Shown one piece after another: positions 842 through 8,362 of a DNA stretch of 11,014 nt. The notes beneath the pieces were generated by a model. The model was given only the letters and a program-made list of their open reading frames with translations. It was not told the DNA's origin and did not search any database. The position numbers and the translations under genes were made by a program. This stretch comes from Lachnospiraceae bacterium (GTDB taxonomy: Bacteria > Bacillota_A > Clostridia > Lachnospirales > Lachnospiraceae). The stretch is from assembly GCA_017437705.1 (NCBI GenBank), contig JAFRYJ010000067.1, positions 1 through 11,014 on the forward strand, given 5' to 3'. How positions within the stretch are numbered: the stretch's first letter is position 1; every line of letters starts with the position of its first letter.

Positions 842-1318
842 TTAACTCATCTTCAGTGATTCCATGGCAATTACGGTGAGCATGAAATGACAGCAGTACT
901 TTATATCCTCTCCGTCCCTTATATCAAGGGAATAATACTTCCTGTCCTTGGGATTCTCGGTGGACACACGCATCACGCGTTCGCCGTACTCATCCTTTAC
1001 CTCGTATTTCCACTTGGAGAATTCGCCCTGGGCCTCCCAGGCCAGCTCTGCGGAGATGTATTTGGGGTGGAAGCCGGTCCTGTAGGACATCTCGTCGATG
1101 TATTCGCCTTTTCCGTCCGTCATGTTGGATTTCGTTATGAACGATGACGTAATAAGCTCGCTCTTTCCCACGGGATTGTCGTAAGCGTCTGTCATGGTAA
1201 CTCTTCTGTGCATGGATTTATTGTCGATCTTTGCCTTGTAAAGGACCTCCTCGTCCATGTTCAGAAGCTCGAATTTTTTCATGAGCCCCAGCTCCATGTA
1301 TTTAACAAGTATCCTCAT
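842..1318 (-). CDS. LURP-one-related (YxjI/Tubby-like) protein
   Basis: A 158-residue soluble protein, beginning MRILVKYMEL. The start is fixed by a strong GGAGGT ribosome binding site that overlaps the TAG stop of the preceding gene, 9 nt away. The pattern of short beta-strand-like segments, the stretch YKAKIDNKSMHRRVTMTD (residues 27-44) with a following GKSELI, and a final hydrophobic segment (YCCHFMLTVIAMESL, about 141-155) fit the LURP-one-related/YxjI family. That family has a twelve-stranded barrel around a central C-terminal helix, related to Tubby and scramblase folds. No catalytic residues are known for the family and its bacterial role is unclear; phospholipid binding is suggested by the fold only. 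It is the third gene of the hisS operon. The family call rests on overall look rather than a strict motif, so another small barrel protein remains possible. Confidence 0.5.
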   Translation of the reverse strand: MRILVKYMELGLMKKFELLNMDEEVLYKAKIDNKSMHRRVTMTDAYDNPVGKSELITSSFITKSNMTDGKGEYIDEMSYRTGFHPKYISAELAWEAQGEFSKWKYEVKDEYGERVMRVSTENPKDRKYYSLDIRDGEDIKYCCHFMLTVIAMESLKMS

Positions 1319-1327
1319 TTCTACCTC

Positions 1328-2086
1328 CTATTCATCCAAAAAACCAAGGTATTCGTCAAAAAGATTGAAAAGCATGTCCCCCGAGCATACCGGTATCTCG
1401 CCGGTGGTGCCGGGCAGGGGTGCGTAACCGTAAAGGTCCAAGGCCCCCGTAAGGCACAGGGCCGGTATTATATCCGCTTCGTTTCCGAATATTATTTCCA
1501 GATAGGGCGCATACTTTGCGCTCTGCAGCACCTCGTCCTCAAGGAGCCTGTCCTTCATCTTGAACTCTATCGAAAAGACTCTCTCCGGCATGATGACCAG
1601 CACGTCCGCATAGATCCGGACGCTTTTGGACAGGCGTATCCTGGTCTCGAAGGCGATCTCCCAGAGGCTTTTGTCCACATCATCCATGTCGCGGAAGGTG
1701 TTCTGCATTACCTCGTAAGTATCCCTGAAGGAATGGAACAGCCCTCTCGTATCGTTGAGGTTCCGGCCTGCGTCCGTGCAGCCCTCCATCATAAGGGCGA
1801 ACCAGGTCTCTTCATCCGTCTGCAGGAATTCCTCCACGGAGGCGTAGTACCCGCAGAAATCCCTTAAACCTTTGTGGGGGTACCCCTGGCTTATCCTGCC
1901 GTACCACTTGTGGTCCGCATCCTGCCTGCAGAGCTGCTGCATATAGGGCGACGTGTAAAGGTAGTGGTTCACCGTCGTCCGGTCCGCGTTCAGCCTGCGG
2001 GCGATGTCCCTGGCTTTGATGCCTGATGACGCGCATATTACGGAATAGATGTCCCTTTCAATGGGATCCGCTGCTTTTCCCGCCAT
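1328..2086 (-). CDS. Winged-helix protein with PD-(D/E)XK nuclease-like domain
   Basis: 252 residues, not recognised as a named family. Residues about 8-45 read as a helix-turn-helix or winged helix (RDIYSVICASSGIKARDIAR, then RLNADRTTVNHYL), with WYGRI at 61-65 as a likely wing. The second half contains a PD-(D/E)XK-like pattern: helix with E147, then D161 in RIYADVLVI, then the strand FSIEFK (E174, K176), then a helix with Q188 and Y192. This D-x12-ExK plus Q order matches restriction-endonuclease-like cores, but it is a visual match only. The ATG lies 3 nt after the full-length hisS stop (TAG at 2090-2092). The only ribosome-binding-like bases, AGGA, lie too close to the ATG, so translation probably depends on ribosomes that have just finished full-length hisS. 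The gene ends in TAG, which overlaps the next ribosome binding site. Role unknown; DNA or RNA binding with possible cleavage is an inference. Confidence 0.6.
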   Translation of the reverse strand: MAGKAADPIERDIYSVICASSGIKARDIARRLNADRTTVNHYLYTSPYMQQLCRQDADHKWYGRISQGYPHKGLRDFCGYYASVEEFLQTDEETWFALMMEGCTDAGRNLNDTRGLFHSFRDTYEVMQNTFRDMDDVDKSLWEIAFETRIRLSKSVRIYADVLVIMPERVFSIEFKMKDRLLEDEVLQSAKYAPYLEIIFGNEADIIPALCLTGALDLYGYAPLPGTTGEIPVCSGDMLFNLFDEYLGFLDE

Positions 2087-2089
2087 ATC

Positions 2090-3346
2090 CTACGATCTGT
2101 AGATCTTCCTGAATTCGGTGAAGCCCTCTTCCGTGAGCCTGTCGATCTGCTGCTTCATGTTCTTCCTCATGGGCTGTACCGTTACGGTATAGCCCTGATC
2201 CCTTCAGGCCTTCGCCTCGGTAAAGGCGTCGATCTTCATCCGGCTGTCGGCCTTTCTGTCCAGAAGTATGGCCAGGTTCTTCTCGTCGATCGAGGGCTTC
2301 TTCTCCATGTGCTCCGCCATTATCGTTATGATGCGCTCGAAGCCAATGGATATTCCCGTGGCAGGCACGGGCTGTCCGCAGAAATTGCCTACCATGTTGT
2401 CGTATCTGCCGCCGCCTGATACCGAGAAATTATACCCGTCCATGGTGATCTCGAAGATGGGGCCGGTATAGTAACCCATGCCGCGCACCAGGGTGGGATC
2501 GAACACCACGCTGACGGTGCCGGGCACCGTTACCTTCGTGCTGTCCAGTATCTCCTGAAGGTTTTCGGCAACGGCCGGGTCCAGGCCTTCTATCCTGCCG
2601 CAGAAATCCTGCAGGCTGATGCCCGAGATATCGCTGTATTCCCCGAGGAATCTGTCTATGCTTTCTTCCGCGTAGCCGTTCTCAAGAAGCTCTTTCTTTA
2701 CGCCGTCGGCGCCGATCTTGTCAAGCTTGTCCAGGGTGATGAGCACCGAAAGCACGTCCTCTTCCTTAAAGCCCGCTGCCACAACGGCCGCCGAGAGGAT
2801 CCTCCTGTCGTTTACGTGTACCGTAAAATCGGTGATGCCGGCAATGCTCAATATATTGGTAAGAGTCTCGCATGATGCAGCCAGAAGCTCTATCTCCGCA
2901 AGGTTCGTCTCGTCGCCCAGAATGTCTATGTCGCACTGTACGAACTGGCGGAACCTGCCCTTCTGGGGATTGTCGGCCCTCCACACGTTGCCTGTCTGAA
3001 GCGCTTTGAAAGGCGCAGGGAGCTTTTCCCTGTTGTTTGCGTAATACCTTGCAAGAGGCACGGTAAGGTCGTATCTCAGGCCGTTGTCGGCAAGATCCGT
3101 GCTGCCTGCGGCGATGGCCTTTTCCAGATCCCTTCCCCTTTTAAGCACCTTGAAGATAAGCTTTTCATTGTCTCCGCCCTGCTTCGAGGTGAGGTTCTCT
3201 ATGTGCTCCATAACGGGAGTCTCTATCTCCATGAAGCCGTATCTTGCGTAGTTTTCCCTTATCATGCCGAGGACCTGATTCCTGAGCCTCATATCGGAAG
3301 GGAGCATGTCGCACATTCCCTTTACCGGTGTTTTAATATAGTCCAT
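2090..3346 (-). CDS. hisS: Histidyl-tRNA synthetase with in-frame UGA at codon 381
   Basis: Class II aminoacyl-tRNA synthetase charging tRNA(His) in the cytoplasm. Starts at ATG 3346 after a GGAG ribosome binding site. Class II core: the substrate-binding segment RYDLTVPLARYY (91-102), motif 2 around GNVWRADNPQKGRFRQF (119-135), the histidine-specific LVRGMGYYTG (286-295), the GGGRYD turn (311-316) and motif 3 GISIGFERI (331-339). The anticodon-binding domain starts near 356 (KNLAILLDR). A TGA at 2204-2206 would end the protein at 380 residues, part-way through that domain. The same frame continues with 37 codons (RDQGYTVTVQPMRKNMKQQ, then IDRLTEEGFTEFRKIYRS) to TAG at 2090. This looks like the normal end of this short HisRS type and gives about 418 residues, the usual length. 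The span given is the full frame. Possible explanations: nonsense mutation, base error (one change, TTA to TGA, would restore leucine), or UGA readthrough. Strict reading gives 2204-3346. Confidence 0.9.
2171..2195 (-). other. Hairpin 8 nt downstream of the in-frame UGA in hisS
   Basis: On the coding (minus) strand the arms are GGGCTATACCG and CGGTACAGCCC around a TAA loop. Ten of eleven positions pair, with one internal A-C mismatch. The hairpin starts 8 nt after the UGA, a spacing familiar from programmed recoding signals. It lacks a U tract, so it is not an intrinsic terminator. Its apical loop is too small for a typical bacterial SECIS element. It may equally be a chance palindrome in coding sequence. 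Confidence 0.55.
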
Positions 3347-3378
3347 GTCTTACTCCTTAAATTTGCTCGGTCAATCAT

Positions 3379-3470
3379 CAAGGATCGCTTGCGATCCTTG
3401 CGCGCTGCGCGCAGTTGCCGCAGGCAACAATTACAAATGTGCGCGCGTGCGCATCAAACGCGAAGCGTTT
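3379..3470 (-). repeat. Cluster of five short hairpins in the hisS leader
   Basis: Five inverted repeats lie almost end to end between the hisS promoter and its ribosome binding site. They are: a 22-bp perfect palindrome at 3379-3400 (arms CAAGGATCGCT / TTGCGATCCTTG as seen around the centre); TGCGCG-CTG-CGCGCA at 3399-3413; GTTGCC-GCA-GGCAAC at 3414-3428; TGCGC-GCGT-GCGCA at 3440-3453; and AAACGC-GAA-GCGTTT at 3456-3470. Stems of 5-11 bp have loops of 0-4 nt. The region is non-coding on both strands. It could be a structured 5' leader or a compound intergenic repeat. There is no T tract, so these are not ordinary terminators. Confidence 0.75.
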
Positions 3471-3560
3471 TATCTCAGCCGGGGATCAGACCCCCACTGA
3501 GATAAGTTTATAAGAACCCACATATATAGATATGGGGGGCTTATCACGGCTGAGATAAAA
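3468..3560 (-). promoter_or_regulatory. Inverted-repeat element with competing pairings upstream of hisS
   Basis: TTTTATCTCAGCC at 3468-3480 is matched by a perfect 13-nt inverted copy at 3548-3560. A third related copy, CTGAGATAA at 3497-3505, can pair with the same left arm over 9 bp. Only one of the two can pair at a time. Inside are a GGGG/CCCC hairpin (minus strand, 3495-3481) and a GATAAG/CTTATC helix (3501-3506 with 3540-3545) closing a mismatched CCCACATA/TATGGGGG stem. As minus-strand RNA this could switch between a junction and a long hairpin, which would suit an attenuator or riboswitch-like leader. The outer arm touches the candidate -10 box, so part of it may lie before the transcription start. 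In that case it would act as DNA or be a small repeat element. Confidence 0.5.
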
Positions 3561-3588
3561 TTATACCGTAAAACTGTCCTTAATACAA
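3560..3588 (-). promoter_or_regulatory. hisS: Candidate sigma-A promoter for the hisS operon
   Basis: On the minus strand a perfect TATAAT (3560-3565) lies 17 nt from TTGTAT (3583-3588), which matches the -35 consensus at three of six positions. It lies between the tetR terminator and hisS, so hisS would have its own transcript with a leader of about 200 nt. Confidence 0.55.
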
Positions 3589-3620
3589 TAAGAGCGGGCC
3601 GGCATCACTGCCATGAAAGC

Positions 3621-3651
3621 AAAAAAACAGGAGCATTCCGCTCCCGTTTTT
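3621..3651 (-). terminator. Intrinsic terminator after tetR
   Basis: Minus-strand arms AAAAACGGGAGC and GCTCCTGTTTTT pair with a single G-U wobble around a GGAAT loop. The 3' arm runs into a seven-T tract. It starts 10 nt after the TetR stop. The A-rich 5' side means it could also work on the other strand, but no plus-strand gene precedes it. Confidence 0.85.
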
Positions 3652-3661
3652 CTTCGCAACG

Positions 3662-4276
3662 TTATTCCGCGCGTTTTTTCCTCTGTTTTTTCTTCAGCTC
3701 CCTGTCCTCGGCCTTCTTTGCCGCTTCCTTTAAGGCTGCGCCGCCGCTTTTAACGCCGTGCTTGATGATGAGAAGCATCTTGCTTACCACCGCATCCGGG
3801 TCCTCTTCCATGCCGGTCACGATCCAGTCCAGTGCGAAAGCGACCATGCCGCTCAGATAATACGAAGTAAGGAACTCCCGGTCTTCGTCCGTAAGCTCCG
3901 TGGTCTTAAGGCTCTCGGCGACATACTCGTCCATGAGAGGCTTCGTATTTGTGCAGATGACCTCCTCGAGATGCTCTCTTCCTATGGAATGATATATGTT
4001 CGTAAACATTTTATTGTTTTTCTTAATATATCTGAAGACCTTTTTCGTCGTGCTTCCCCAGGGCGATTTCGGCGACATGGTATCGTAGATATCCATAAGG
4101 GCCTTCATGAGTATCTCTTTTAACAGATCGTAAATATCATCATAATGATAATAGAAGGTCATCCTGCTGACACCGCATTTATCGGTGATCTCGCTGATAG
4201 TGATCTTGTTGATGGGCTTCTCGTTAAGAAGTTCAATAAAAGCACTTTCCAGCGCTCTTTCAGTGATCTTTGACAT
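3662..4276 (-). CDS. TetR/AcrR-family transcriptional regulator
   Basis: 204 residues. The N-terminal 60 residues are a TetR DNA-binding domain: MSKITERALESAFIELL, then ITISEITDKCGVSRMTFYYH (residues 25-44), whose turn and FYYHY recognition helix are diagnostic. The rest is helical. The combination of a TetR N-terminus and a region like FRYIKKNNKMFTNIYHS resembles the TetR_C_7/DhaS-like group, in which the ligand is usually unknown. The final 22 residues are very rich in Lys and Arg (KKKQRKKRAE at the end), an unusual basic tail that could add non-specific nucleic-acid binding. The start is supported by an AAAGGGG ribosome binding site. The gene is divergent from the yibE/F-like pair across 284 bp, so it probably controls itself, that pair, or both. 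It has its own terminator and is not part of the hisS operon. Confidence 0.9.
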   Translation of the reverse strand: MSKITERALESAFIELLNEKPINKITISEITDKCGVSRMTFYYHYDDIYDLLKEILMKALMDIYDTMSPKSPWGSTTKKVFRYIKKNNKMFTNIYHSIGREHLEEVICTNTKPLMDEYVAESLKTTELTDEDREFLTSYYLSGMVAFALDWIVTGMEEDPDAVVSKMLLIIKHGVKSGGAALKEAAKKAEDRELKKKQRKKRAE

Positions 4277-4560
4277 CTCCGTCCCCTTTCCCCAACACAG
4301 GAACTTTGCAAGTCAACATGTTTTTCAGCAGAATTCAAAAAGTGTTCAATTATTTGGATAGAATTCTACCATATACGATTTAAGATAAAAAGACACAAAT
4401 TAAAAAAATACACATCCGGCATAAAAAATGCGGGATGCGCCGTTTATGTGCCTTTTCTGATGCATCATACCCGTACATGGTCCCTGCCCTTCCCCTGCAT
4501 GCAATGATGCTCACTTTATGTTAAAATAAAACATAACGATCCTCAGGCAGGCATTATTGA
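4277..4560. promoter_or_regulatory. Divergent tetR / YibE-F intergenic region
   Basis: The 284-bp gene-free stretch is AT-rich near tetR. On the minus strand a possible tetR promoter is TTGTGT (4393-4398), 17 nt, TATATG (4370-4375). A 10-bp palindrome TAGAATTCTA at 4359-4368 lies at its expected start point and could be an operator. A mismatched hairpin (ATCCGGCAT / ATGCGGGAT) lies near 4414-4436. The dyad near the plus-strand gene is listed separately. I see no small gene or RNA gene. Confidence 0.35.
4516..4536 (+). promoter_or_regulatory. 7-7-7 dyad, candidate operator/promoter of the YibE/F pair
   Basis: TTATGTT and AACATAA form perfect arms around AAAATAA, 25 nt before the first YibE/F start. 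A TAAAAT that could serve as the -10 box lies inside the dyad, with no convincing -35. A regulator bound here would block RNA polymerase. The divergent TetR protein is the obvious candidate, by position only. Confidence 0.4.
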
Positions 4561-7960: not shown

Positions 7961-8362
7961 ATGAAAAGGTTTATATCATTATTCCTTACATTCATGATGA
8001 TCTTCGCACTTGCAGCCTGCGGCGGCGGTTCTTCGGACGGCGGATCAGGTTCCGATGACGGCGGTGCAGCAGACGCAGCCGGCACCTACAAATGCCATCA
8101 GATCAAGCTCGTCGGGGATTCGGACTGGACCGAAGAGGATTCCACTCTCACCCTGAACGCAGACGGTACAGGTAAGCATGCCCGCGACAACAATGAATTC
8201 AACGTTACCTGGAAGCTCGACGGCGAGAATTTCTCCATGGAAGAGACTTTCATCGGCGATCCCATCGTGTATACCGGAACGCTTAAAGACGGCAAGCTGG
8301 ATATTTTCAACGGAGACCCCGAAGATATCTGGACGTACGAATATCTGTATGAGAAAGAGTAA
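7961..8362 (+). CDS. Small lipoprotein with lipocalin-like C-terminal domain
   Basis: 133 residues. The AAAGGAGGT ribosome binding site is the best in the window and fixes the start. A lipoprotein signal peptide (MKRFISLFLTFMMIFA) ends in the lipobox LAAC, with the lipidated Cys at 20. A Gly/Ser/Asp-rich linker (21-40) follows. The domain from 41 (GTYKCHQIKL) has the strand pattern STLTLNADGTG, then VTWKLDGENFSM, then GTLKDGKLDIF. This resembles the small lipocalin-like or DUF-type lipoproteins common in clostridia, where a GTY opening and the DGTG turn recur. The family's function is not known. It would be anchored to the outer face of the cytoplasmic membrane. It follows the glycosyltransferase by 23 nt and is closed by a terminator whose stem starts 5 nt after the stop. 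Confidence 0.8.
   Translation: MKRFISLFLTFMMIFALAACGGGSSDGGSGSDDGGAADAAGTYKCHQIKLVGDSDWTEEDSTLTLNADGTGKHARDNNEFNVTWKLDGENFSMEETFIGDPIVYTGTLKDGKLDIFNGDPEDIWTYEYLYEKE

Follow-up and report, generated by a model that had tools for sequence, protein, structure and literature searches.

Question raised by the in-frame stop codon

An in-frame TGA interrupts hisS, the gene for histidyl-tRNA synthetase (HisRS), and the question is whether UGA is recoded here within an essential gene or whether the codon is a mutation or base error. The window, as used below, is the whole stretch of 11,014 nucleotides that was analyzed. The hisS frame starts with ATG at 3346 on the reverse strand and meets TGA as codon 381 (2206-2204, reverse strand); beyond it the frame runs on without a stop through codons 382-418 (37 codons) and closes with TAG (2092-2090, reverse strand). 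These positions, re-read from the open reading frame and its codons, are exactly those given in the preliminary description, and the frame was found to carry no other lesion besides the TGA. The TGA is very probably an isolated nonsense change, either a contig error or a real recent mutation, in an otherwise ordinary hisS of a Lachnospiraceae-like bacterium. The features of the locus are as follows.

2204..3346, reverse strand: hisS reading frame from its ATG through the TGA (380 aa, covering the catalytic domain and the first part of the C-terminal domain), from a match to TIGR00442 hisS
2204..2206, reverse strand: the in-frame TGA (codon 381), at which alignment shows Leu for the closest relatives
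2090..2203, reverse strand: 37 distal codons and TAG; remaining HisRS C-terminal (anticodon-binding) domain, from homologue alignment and the P0001 model
2171..2195, reverse strand: 25-nt hairpin of 10 pairs and one A-C mismatch, -14.0 kcal/mol, starting 8 nt after the TGA; probably chance
1328..2086, reverse strand: gene that follows hisS, 252 aa with an HTH_24 domain, separated from the distal TAG by 3 nt; gene order shared with G282, the sister genome

The distal codons and the HisRS C-terminus

Read through, the hisS product is 418 residues, which is the usual length, as had been claimed, given that the 120 best homologues listed range from 417 to 446 aa (none of the 120 is shorter than 417 aa). 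The 380-aa part scored 287.9 bits against the NCBIfam model TIGR00442 (hisS), narrowly over the cut-off of 286.75, and the closest protein found, P0001, scored 304.8. Identity to P0001 was 30/37 after the TGA and 349/380 before it (Fisher p 0.064), and identity to the sister protein P0002 was 27/37 after and 279/379 before (p 1.0). Because the distal 37 residues match both proteins, the distal codons are the genuine HisRS C-terminus rather than a chance open stretch, which bears out the initial proposal. Relative to P0002 the distal segment has not diverged more than the rest, as is to be expected if the change is very recent or an error.

An AlphaFold2 model of P0001 had a mean pLDDT of 79, with values of 87 to 96 by tens of residues from residue 351 on and values below 50 at residues 1-12, 46-75, 82-92 and 125-130. 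The C-terminal domain of this model consists of a strand (357-362), a helix (368-383), a strand (387-392), a helix (397-407) and a strand (412-415). Termination at 381 cuts the chain off within helix 368-383, the first helix of the domain, so that three of the five C-terminal elements are lost and the standard-code product is left without a complete anticodon-binding domain. Given that the modeled chain ends in this helix, a 380-aa HisRS would be unlikely to work.

Residue 381 in related proteins

P0001 (418 aa) is identical to the window's frame at 379 of 418 positions, with the stop counted as X, and has Leu at 381; no DNA of the same species was found, P0001 is known as a protein only, and Leu there is a residue and not a codon. 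In the closest genome found, G282, hisS is uninterrupted and codon 381 is CTT (Leu). Comparison with codon 381 of close HisRS relatives had been suggested as a check, and leucine was the outcome in both. Among 39 aligned homologues, chosen by us out of 120 listed, residue 381 was Leu in 37 and Met in two. A broader count over 98 loci, from which rows below 45% identity had been removed and which includes duplicate loci of the same genomes as well as distant homologues down to 45% identity, gave Leu 52, Glu 27, Asp 6, Ala 4, Met 3, Gln 2 and one each of Ile, Tyr, Arg and Val; we think that the alignment at 381 is uncertain for the distant homologues in this count. The best 26 of the 98 rows, several of them duplicates, had Leu (24) or Met (2).

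No stop codon was seen at 381 in the 98 loci or the 39 proteins. Strong full-length hisS matches without an internal stop were found in 10/10, 7/7 and 4/4 genomes of overlapping sets, where the 7 genomes are those of 299 that reached E 1e-170 and the 4 genomes those of 392 that reached E 1e-150. The plain reading of the TGA as a mutation or base error, put forward at the outset, is supported by the Leu codon in the close relatives examined and by the absence of a stop from all of them.

Gene neighborhood and the sister genome

G282 belongs to the same family as G002, which is the Coprococcus catus genome that contains locus L002. The hisS of G282 is 74% identical to P0001 and 73% to the window's frame, and the order tetR, hisS, HTH gene, 158-aa gene and AlaX-like gene is common to G282 and the window. 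The six other window genes with a counterpart in G282 align without a stop or frameshift (in this comparison the AlaX-like gene runs off the contig, and the termini of yibF and tetR do not agree), an indication that the contig as a whole is not of poor quality. Open frames are also found in three window genes outside this six-gene comparison, those for a glycosyltransferase, a lipoprotein-like protein and a sulfatase.

The ATG of the HTH gene was confirmed at 2086, where it had been placed before; it shares the hisS frame and is separated from the hisS TAG by 3 nt (GAT). The HTH gene of G282 starts 4 nt after the hisS stop and has no evident ribosome-binding site, which makes coupling by termination and restart from hisS to the HTH gene plausible in both the window and G282. 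Translation of the HTH gene in the window is probably coupled to hisS termination, and the earlier remark that this gene depends on such termination appears reasonable. The HTH neighbor (P0121) is recorded from one contig of 11,014 bases, as long as the window itself, so that the window seems to be an entire short contig with no replicate.

The HTH gene (1328-2086, reverse strand) had 2359 homologues at E ≤0.001 among 2511 candidates; among the 120 listed, four carry an organism name, three of them Lachnospiraceae and one Eubacteriales. Its C-terminal half carries a D...ExK-like pattern, which we take to be reminiscent of PD-(D/E)XK nucleases.

Other HisRS-like proteins

Each of five relatives searched (G282, G293, G002, G355 and G080) had two proteins matching the tRNA-synt_His family, one of hisS type and one other. 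The second match was scored against further models in G282 and G080. In G282 it is a HisZ-HisG fusion, a better match to the HisG and HisZ models than to hisS (hisG model over cut-off; HisZ 175.9 bits, under cut-off; hisS 96.4 bits); the second match of G080 scores above the cut-off for HisZ. The only HisRS seen in G282, a genome whose completeness is not given, is therefore the hisS described here.

The fusion of G282 lies at L112 829-2469 on the reverse strand and encodes 546 aa; it scores above the cut-off of TIGR00070 (hisG), and its HisZ-type first half stays below that of the HisZ model. L108 seems, by eye, to carry a similar fusion. The HisRS type itself is patchy. Among 58 genomes of the family of G001, high identity was found only in G001 (64%), 55 had weak HisRS matches (23-45% in the rows listed) and two had none, a pattern that suggests replacement or transfer.

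Decoding of UGA

The in-frame TGA is the only one in the 3261 codons counted in the window, which include 44 TGG codons. The eight remaining gene stops of the window are TAA (six) or TAG (two) and never TGA; this would also fit a freed UGA and is suggestive, in a small sample. In the G282 stretch, 1/10 gene stops is TGA, so that few TGA stops are normal there, and hisS of G282 itself ends in TGA. Release factor RF2 was found over cut-off in 5/5 relatives searched, G282 among them. A selB over cut-off was found in one of the five (G293) and not in G282. No tRNA gene, and hence no suppressor tRNA, was found in the window. From these comparisons UGA is taken to remain a stop codon in this lineage, the window's own organism being judged by its sister.

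The hairpin downstream of the TGA

The strength of the hairpin depends on the measure used (25-mer or 45-nt energy), and the structure was noticed after the fact. Among the window's 9499 overlapping 25-mers of coding sequence, it ranks second by energy. Over 45 nt, 172/5000 synonymous shuffles were as stable (z -2.3, the lowest of 130 overlapping hisS segments), and 99/3037 coding positions are followed by 45 nt of equal stability. G282 does not have the hairpin (-8.9 kcal/mol). When segments of relatives were folded, leaving out rows below 50% identity or ending before residue 400 and merging identical segments, 1/79 distinct segments was as strong (L083, where codon 381 is CTG). The hairpin is probably chance, and it is the one feature that keeps the recoding reading alive.

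The spacing from the UGA to the apical loop (18-19 nt) and the energy of the whole hairpin fall within the limits for bacterial SECIS elements (bSECIS) given in the available text of PMC13188914. The minimum-energy apical loop is UAA and contains no G; when the closing G-C pair is opened, the loop becomes GUAAC with G first, and the upper stem-loop is then only -3.3 kcal/mol. When the bSECIS rule was scripted with an unbroken stem, the hairpin failed, and 155/3037 coding positions and 18/350 TGA triplets passed.

No Rfam family reached its gathering score in the window; the two weaker matches both lay outside hisS. A promoter and terminator scan of 1200-4300 returned nothing bearing on the stop, and viral contigs held no relative and no match to the local DNA pattern. 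In the literature searched, nothing related was found on stop codon readthrough and nothing on truncated HisRS. Elsewhere in the window, short GC-rich palindromes were seen by eye at 3350-3500, upstream of hisS; they were absent from the repeats of at least 20 nt, and no Rfam match fell there. The segment 8361-8557, at the end of and after a 133-aa ORF (7961-8362), holds two direct repeats of 52 nt (92%) along with two inverted repeats (21 nt, 100%; 20 nt, 95%), flanked by A/T runs; it looks terminator-like or may be a small mobile repeat.

Alternative explanations

The alternative of UGA recoding, raised together with the plain reading, found no firm support: the site is Leu, the sister has RF2 and a TGA-ended hisS and lacks a selB over cut-off, and the hairpin is near chance and absent in the sister. 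Leaky or programmed readthrough is quite unlikely in our judgment; in this reading a near-cognate or suppressor tRNA would sometimes decode codon 381 with the aid of the hairpin, so that some full-length HisRS is made and translation of the coupled HTH gene is maintained. It draws on the wholly preserved frame after the TGA, on the stability of a hairpin so close behind it and on the start of the next gene 3 nt after the distal stop, but equally strong 45-nt folds occur at the coding positions counted above, the hairpin was a post hoc observation, and the stop and its putative stimulator are not conserved among relatives, since TGA was seen in no relative examined and the hairpin is missing from the sister. 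The more specific proposal that the TGA is real and fixed in the lineage, with hairpin-stimulated readthrough giving a small amount of full-length HisRS, is very unlikely. If it were true, readthrough efficiency would set both the supply of HisRS and translation of the coupled HTH gene, and UGA readthrough in an aminoacyl-tRNA synthetase would place an essential gene under a translational control loop. The idea that codon 381 specifies selenocysteine and that the hairpin serves as its bSECIS has a probability close to nil despite the permitted spacing and energy and the G that comes first once the loop is opened. Cys occupies the site in 0/39 homologues and 0/98 loci (a published selenoprotein screen required TGA/Cys pairs, according to the available text of PMC1088965), the minimum-energy loop has no G, the opened stem-loop is weak, and selB over cut-off is limited to one of five relatives and was not found in the sister. 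This reading was rejected because homologues have Leu, not Cys, at the site.

A reassignment of UGA to an amino acid across the genome or clade could account for the absence of TGA among the eight other stops and is given hardly any weight, given that no other in-frame TGA accompanies the 44 TGG codons, that the sister ends hisS with TGA and keeps RF2, and that the known bacterial reassignments described in the available text of PMC8629427 give Trp or Gly, not Leu, and occur in other clades. Codon counts, stop counts and the sister genome led us to reject a code change. Alternatively, this hisS could be a decaying pseudogene or second copy, in which an internal stop would be tolerable given an intact HisRS elsewhere. 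This is quite improbable: the frame carries no further lesion, and the five relatives each have one other tRNA-synt_His protein, which in G282 and G080 fits the HisG and HisZ models better than hisS.

Most probable explanation

The isolated nonsense change would have arisen either as a consensus error in a single, probably metagenomic contig or as a genuine mutation that the sampled strain acquired recently; we take the organism to resemble G282. Of the two, a consensus error is somewhat more likely, because an enzyme lacking most of its C-terminal domain would not be expected to sustain growth as the only HisRS; this choice is our inference. Several observations count against an isolated change. 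The distal segment is somewhat less conserved than the rest relative to P0001 (p 0.064). The preliminary description invoked a single base change from TTA to TGA, and this stands as a possibility; TTA, the one-step Leu neighbor of TGA, is rare (6/305 Leu codons in the window and 33/336 in the G282 stretch), and in the sister the codon is CTT. A change of one base has to start from this rare codon, and from the other Leu codons several changes are required, which also tells against an isolated change, as do the clean state of the other genes, the 0/8 TGA stops and the strong hairpin.

The case illustrates that a lone stop codon in one contig can pass for recoding, with an intact downstream frame, a coupled neighbor and even a well-placed hairpin, all of which are accounted for by relatives and chance rates.

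Comparison with known systems

Compared with HisRS as described by TIGR00442 and PF13393, the window gene has the same catalytic domain, the same length when read through and the same C-terminal part, and differs in having TGA where its closest relatives have a Leu codon. With bacterial selenoprotein genes that carry a bSECIS, as presented in the available text of PMC13188914 and PMC1088965, it shares an in-frame UGA and a stable hairpin at a permitted distance; here, however, the homologues have Leu and not Cys, the minimum-energy loop is without G, and the sister is without a selB over cut-off. With a nonsense mutation or consensus error in a contig it shares the single stop, the intact frame on both sides and the sense codon in relatives.
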